From assembly GCF_014696135.1 (NCBI RefSeq), contig NZ_JACJPP010000011.1:186001-250000 (forward strand): 64,000 bases of DNA, read 5' to 3'. The notes beneath the pieces are model-generated. The model searched no databases, had not been told where the DNA came from, and saw only the letters and a list, made by a program, of their open reading frames with translations. The DNA comes from Nodosilinea sp. FACHB-141. Its GTDB lineage: Bacteria; Cyanobacteriota; Cyanobacteriia; Phormidesmidales; Phormidesmidaceae. How positions within the stretch are numbered: the first letter of the stretch is position 1; each line of letters begins with the position of its first letter. The position numbers and the translations under genes are program-made. Shown here piece by piece: positions 62,436 to 62,984 of this stretch.

Positions 62436-62506
62436 GCGGGTGTAGTTTAGTGGTAAAACCTTAGCCTTCCAAGCTAATGATGGGGGTTCGATTCCCCCCA
62501 CCCGCT
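62436..62506 (+). tRNA. tRNA-Gly(UCC)
   Basis: A 71-nt gene with 7-bp acceptor stem GCGGGTG/CACCCGC and discriminator T. The D arm is GTTTAGTGGTAAAAC. The anticodon stem TTAGC/GCTAA has loop CTTCCAA (anticodon TCC, reading GGA), and the T arm GGGGGTTCGATTCCCCC has the conserved TTCGA. CCA is not encoded. A transposon end begins 8 bp downstream, and a matching guide inside that element targets this gene. Confidence 0.97.
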
Positions 62507-62513
62507 TAAATAG

Positions 62514-62613
62514 TGTACAGTGACTCACTATTTGTCATCGGTGACGTATCAGTGTCGTTGAGGCCAGATTTAATGTCATTGAGACATAATTGTGTCGTCA
62601 AACCGCTGGTGAC
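62514..62613 (+). mobile_element. Terminal region of a Tn7-like, type V-K (Cas12k) CRISPR-associated transposon remnant
   Basis: The sequence starts TGTACAGTGAC 8 bp after the tRNA and continues with TGTC-containing repeats at 62533, 62553, 62574 and 62593, at a regular 19-21 bp spacing, then GTGAC at 62609. TGTACA termini with TGTC/GTGAC transposase-binding repeats at two helical turns are the hallmark of V-K CAST ends, which insert beside tRNA genes. No tnsB, tnsC, tniQ or cas12k lies in the window. The interior continues rightwards at least to the CRISPR repeat at 62777. Confidence 0.85.
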
Positions 62614-62641
62614 ACATTGTTTGTTTTCTAGGAAGCCTTTA

Positions 62642-62695
62642 GAAGGCTAAGGCTTTACCTTTCAAATTGCTTAAGGCCTTGTCGGCGCTGCTTTT
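62642..62695 (-). ncRNA. Putative delocalised homing guide (crRNA) matching the adjacent tRNA-Gly
   Basis: On the minus strand, a repeat-like 3' end TTTGAAAG (62666-62659) is followed by GTAAAGCCTTAGCCTTC (62658-62642). This 17-nt sequence matches tRNA-Gly positions 62453-62469 at 16 of 17 positions (18 of 20 if extended). The target is preceded by AGTG (62449-62452), a GTN-type PAM, and lies 61 bp from the transposon end. Short, delocalised homing spacers are known for V-K CASTs. The 5' part of the repeat (to about 62695) is not clearly conserved. Confidence 0.8.
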
Positions 62696-62740
62696 TAAGC
62701 CATAATCTCTAGAATTTGCCGAAGTGGCAAGGTTGCAGGC

Positions 62741-62777
62741 CTTTCAACCTCCCCTGTTCAGGGTGGTTGATTGGGAC
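62741..62777 (-). CRISPR. Single 37-nt type V-K-like CRISPR direct repeat
   Basis: Read on the minus strand, the 37-nt unit starts GTCCCAATCAACCACCC and ends CAGGGGAGGTTGAAAG. Its length, the terminal GTTGAAAG and the internal CCACCC/GGGGAGG-type pairing agree with V-K repeats as I remember them. Only this one full repeat is present; 75 bp further on the strand lies the TTTGAAAG end of the guide. The sequence after it (62740-62716) does not match tRNA-Gly contiguously, sharing only AACCTT. Confidence 0.7.
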
Positions 62778-62984
62778 GGCAGCTTAAATAAACAATGCCT
62801 TCTGAGGCGAGTTTAGGGCAAAGGGTGAGCGTTGAACGATGAATGGAATAGCTAGCGGGAAGGACACCTTGCTGCATCCACAAGGGATAACCATTGACGT
62901 TGTGTAGCTGTAGGGTGCGATCGCCCTATTTAGCCTCATGTGACCTGCCGGGCTAGCCGAGCAAAATAAATGTACACTTACCCC

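Follow-up and report, generated by a model that had tools for sequence, protein, structure and literature searches.

The left end of a cyanobacterial type V-K CAST lies downstream of a tRNA gene that points at it, and the element is anchored there by a truncated repeat of about 12 nt and a spacer, usually of 17 nt, both read towards the left end (PMC9938897). The target is preceded by a GTN PAM, and the distance from the PAM to the transposon end is 46-82 nt (PMC9938897). According to a review, truncated att-site crRNAs, mostly directed against tRNA genes, are the rule (PMC11406308).

Here we describe a locus that begins according to this plan and then breaks off. It lies in the genome G000, in a stretch of 64,000 nucleotides (C11:186001-250000) which we call the window. 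When it is compared with elements of the ShCAST, AcCAST and AnCAST kind (PMC9938897, PMC11406308), we see the same tRNA gene pointing at a left end made of TGTACA and TnsB-site-like repeats, the same truncated repeat (R*) with a 17-nt spacer read towards that end, a GTN PAM at 61 bp (46-82 in the published elements) and a V-K-type repeat behind. On the other hand, everything past the first CRISPR repeat is missing, and both the R* handle and one base of the guide are changed. We therefore regard positions 62514-62779 as very probably the relic of the left terminus of a type V-K CAST downstream of tRNA-Gly(TCC), which was later deleted and is decaying, with most of its guide handle lost. The anatomy itself is already published, and the locus is an ordinary, decayed member of a known system. 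Its features are the following:

62436-62506, plus strand: tRNA-Gly(TCC), the attachment-site gene (ARAGORN; Rfam tRNA, 76 bits)
62450-62469, plus strand: PAM GTG (62450-62452) and 17-nt protospacer (62453-62469) within the tRNA gene, read from the sequence
62514-62629, plus strand: CAST left end, terminus TGTACAGTGAC and TnsB-site-like repeats (TGTCAT/TGTCGT/GTGAC), aligned to the left ends of G009, G014, G017, G021 and G249
62642-62658, minus strand: 17-nt homing (anchor) spacer GTAAAGCCTTAGCCTTC, 16/17 to the tRNA, in the position of the 17/17 guide of G014 and G021
62659-62670, minus strand: truncated repeat R* GCAATTTGAAAG, decayed from GCGAGTTGAAAG (comparison with G009, G014, G021 and the genome's own tRNA-His element; duplex energies)
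62741-62777, minus strand: lone surviving V-K CRISPR repeat of 37 nt (plus-strand CTTTCAACCTCCCCTGTTCAGGGTGGTTGATTGGGAC), whose identity to the repeats in the array of the G014 element is 90-92%
62780-62815, no strand: putative zone of the deletion junction, with the CAST remnant on one side and the flank of a copper locus on the other (similarity to the G014 CAST stops at 62779, similarity to the copper-gene flank of G011 starts at about 62810)

Guide, target and left end

The first-pass annotation, made from the sequence of the window, had proposed that a minus-strand sequence at 62658-62642 is a Cas12k-type homing guide against the adjacent tRNA-Gly gene, and in kind this was right. On the minus strand, 62669-62642 reads CAATTTGAAAG followed by GTAAAGCCTTAGCCTTC, with GAAAG directly before the 17-nt spacer, while the tRNA gene has AGTG followed by GTAAAACCTTAGCCTTC at the target. 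The PAM is thus GTG. Spacer and protospacer agree in 16 of 17 positions, and the slight divergence that had been suspected is a single mismatch at spacer position 6 (G in the guide, A in the protospacer), where an rG-dT wobble on the target strand could be formed. Counted from the start of the protospacer to the TGTACA at 62514, the spacing is indeed 61 bp, and the left end begins 7 bp after the end of the tRNA. All of these parameters, which had been likened to those of Cas12k-guided insertion at tRNA genes, agree with the published anchor-spacer layout.

To quantify the match, we compared it with 120 Markov resamples of the 339-bp stretch. The best 17-mer match to the tRNA in the resamples was 11-14/17, which argues that a match of 16/17 is not due to chance; this comparison concerns the match alone, before a PAM or a preceding GAAAG is demanded.

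By itself, TGTACA is uninformative (8 occurrences in the window, 6.6 expected), and we identified the left end by the TnsB-site-like repeats that follow it. A scan for TGTNCA with such repeats, which is blind to CAST ends of other sequence types, matched only this left end in the window and nine other stretches of the same genome. The V-K repeat at 62741-62777, of which the first-pass annotation made no mention, is the only one at the relic, and there is no array. Besides the tRNA, Rfam gave only sub-threshold matches, and a search of a plasmid collection gave no match.

Relatives at the same tRNA gene

We searched 390 genomes of the class for the guide motif, allowing up to 2 mismatches, and found it in six of them. 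It always occurs inside sequence that resembles a CAST left end, with an R*-like handle before it, although this handle is altered in G017 and a second site in G021 is more diverged. In other words, a guide-like sequence in a genome that lacks a CAST end, an outcome that would have spoken against a homing guide, was not seen in any of the six.

The first-pass annotation had also suggested looking for the same guide in a relative with a full CAST at this tRNA, and we found one in G014, a genome of the same genus. Its complete CAST of 22.5 kb (C10:874674-897150) lies at the same tRNA-Gly with a guide of 17/17 and a spacing of 61 bp. Within it are about eleven repeats, a tracrRNA region, cas12k, cargo, and genes resembling TniQ, TnsC and TnsB whose order is the published one; a right end closes the element, and matching 5-bp target duplications (GATGT) flank it. 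Cas12k was assigned here by NF038191, and the Tns names by order, size and similarity rather than by a family-model match. The relic shares with this element the tRNA gene, the spacing, 82% identity over the first 266 bp and a guide that is one base apart; unlike G014, it has retained neither the array, tracrRNA, cas12k and tniQ/tnsC/tnsB-like genes nor the right end and the perfect guide.

The remaining matches differ in their degree of preservation. The relic of the window recurs in G009 (96% identity over 1.2 kb), and G017 has a decayed form of left end and guide. In G249, which belongs to another genus, the guide and the genome's own tRNA-Gly have an extra base change in common, so that they match in 17/17 positions. 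G021 has the guide, R*, an array and an intact cas12k together with stacked left ends. Its contig C44 presumably corresponds to NZ_JACJOX010000049.1 of Leptolyngbya sp. FACHB-60, whose V-K CAST at tRNA-Gly resembles the relic in its tRNA-Gly guide and R* and has an array and intact cas12k as well, but differs from it in having its left ends stacked, and in a second left end, 39 kb away, whose guide has diverged more. In C44 itself (L051 3071-3345, L053 2076-2248), the tRNA-Gly guide and array come after a stack of two left ends that differ in sequence type, and this further left end with its diverged guide follows after 39 kb, as in tandem or recombined CASTs.

These comparisons bear on whether the match could be accidental, or a duplicated piece of the tRNA gene unrelated to CRISPR. 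The match does lie less than 200 bp from the tRNA. However, it is confined to the spacer and comes after an R* handle, it exceeds all 120 resamples, and the guide recurs in intact CASTs and covaries with the tRNA in G249. An accidental or duplicated match is already refuted by the intact G014 element, and we give it practically no weight.

At one position the window and G009 differ in a way that matters for the history of the relic: the 5 bp before the left end (in 62507-62513) are AATAG in the window and GATGT in G009, although the flanking DNA is 96% identical. The two relics may thus not go back to one simple inherited insertion; separate insertions or recombination are possible.

In summary, a V-K CAST homing guide can outlast its transposon and record the site of a former element. 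The genus offers a compact series at one tRNA gene, from a complete element over stacked ends to truncated relics, which opens the turnover of the attachment site and target immunity to study.

Extent of the relic and other CASTs of the genome

The first-pass annotation spoke of a guide in place and had not established that the element is truncated. Positions 62514-62779 can be aligned with the initial 266 bp of the element in G014, and the CAST-like sequence stops just after the single repeat. We found no cas12k, tnsB, tnsC or tniQ in the window or in the next 56 kb, while identical queries do find the other CASTs of the genome; the absence of tniQ is not based on PF06527, a model that matched nowhere, not even the TniQ-like gene later found by similarity. 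Likewise, the 60 kb from 60001 on contain no right-end-like site and no similarity to the right-end side of G014, and a right end with a 5-bp target-site duplication is seen in G014 and not at the relic. A working CAST or a working guide is therefore not supported, since the element is cut after its first CRISPR repeat, has no effector or transposase genes, and has a handle that is predicted to pair poorly with tracrRNA.

Two candidates for the missing side were rejected. AATAG at 62847-62851 is not the right-hand target duplication, as the similarity to the CAST is already over at 62779 and the copper-gene flank of G011 starts at about 62810. TGTACA at 62971 has no TnsB-like repeats beside it.

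A deletion is the simplest account of the extent of the relic. In G012, this copper flank is joined directly by an N-terminal fragment of TnsB, and G019 has the corresponding sequence too; the right side of a CAST would therefore once have lain there. We propose that Cas12k would have been guided to the tRNA gene by a short homing crRNA (truncated repeat and 17-nt spacer), and that TniQ, TnsC and TnsB would then have placed the element some 61 bp beyond the PAM. Later, a deletion would have taken out the whole stretch that starts directly behind the first CRISPR repeat and reaches to the copper-gene flank, and with it the tracrRNA, cas12k, the cargo, the transposase genes and the right end. 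The remaining scar would now be decaying, with a guide that departs from its target at one position and most of the tracrRNA-pairing handle lost.

In the flank itself, upstream of the genes for an HMA protein and CopA, the minus strand at 62853-62960 has a fragment that resembles the C-terminal portion of a longer gene in the copper locus of G011.

The cas12k genes of the genome belong to sites other than the tRNA-Gly relic. At tRNA-Val(TAC), 0.5 Mb from the relic, there is a V-K CAST of another branch that appears to be complete (C11:760218-808157), with the anchor GAGCGCCTGCCTTACAA (17/17), cas12k at C11:761360-763309 and, at about C11:804.9-808.2 kb, genes resembling TniQ, TnsC and TnsB. 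Its end sequence (TGTACGTTCGCA...) is unlike that of the relic, and its TnsB is only 38-39% identical to the TnsB of the lineage that matches the relic. Its cargo of about 40 kb includes two large ORFs, one helicase-like (1061 aa) and one DNA-methylase-like (1394 aa), which may form a defence system. Furthermore, a decayed V-K CAST at tRNA-His (G000:C16, L011 16944-18940) has kept a perfect guide and a CRISPR array, and its cas12k is broken.

Could the locus be a non-autonomous mini-CAST, in which the left end and a distant right end enclose the copper genes, from those for the HMA protein and CopA onwards, and which depends on another CAST for its movement in trans? In favour of this, the left end can be recognised and the same genome has a complete V-K CAST. 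However, that CAST is of another branch, with a different end and TnsB and a tracrRNA unfit for the handle, and the 60 kb searched hold nothing like a right end. The copper genes, moreover, adjoin other, differently broken CAST remains in G011, G012 and G019, and hence look like a flank. We consider such a mini-CAST very improbable.

State of the guide and use of the site

The first-pass annotation had proposed a prediction of the pairing between the repeat end and tracrRNA, and the predicted pairing turned out to be weak. R* and tracrRNA change together across lineages: GGAGGGTT goes with AACCCTCC in the tRNA-Val CAST of the genome, and GCGAGTT goes with AACTCGC in the tRNA-His, G014 and G021 elements. 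Such matched pairs, as found in intact elements, have predicted duplex energies of -12 to -15 kcal/mol. For the window handle, GCAATTT, the prediction is -3.1 kcal/mol with the tracrRNA type of the matching lineage and -0.7 kcal/mol with the tracrRNA of the complete tRNA-Val CAST; for the G009 handle it is -6.3 kcal/mol. The predicted pairing thus argues against use of the guide by Cas12k, and the guide is probably an inactive, decaying, non-functional remnant.

Conservation can be judged from the comparison with G009. The left end is 93% identical and the flanks are 92-99% identical, so that the left end shows no sign of constraint. The guide region is 97.6% identical (42 columns), which does not exclude a weak constraint.

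Potentially, the left end and guide could have been kept because they are active, for example as a mark or a shield at tRNA-Gly when other CASTs arrive, or as the source of a homing guide that acts in trans. The presence of the relic in two related genomes and a guide that still matches in 16/17 positions would fit; the decay of the handle and the lack of extra conservation of the left end would not. Nor does an old end seem to be a bar to insertion, because the new CAST of G014 lies directly outside an old left end and left ends are stacked in G021. A retained function is thus hardly to be expected, and a decaying relic remains our reading.

The G014 site (C10 near 874658-874674, L049) is of interest in its own right. 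Outside the right end, the duplicated GATGT runs straight into TGTACAGTGACGCTCC..., the left end of an older CAST. It seems that the newer CAST went in at exactly the same base as the earlier one, which argues against a lasting target immunity from the old end. Finally, in G012:C38 (L044 from 2107) and G011:C198 (L056) an integrase-like (tyrosine recombinase) gene follows the same tRNA-Gly, and the site has therefore been used by different kinds of mobile element.
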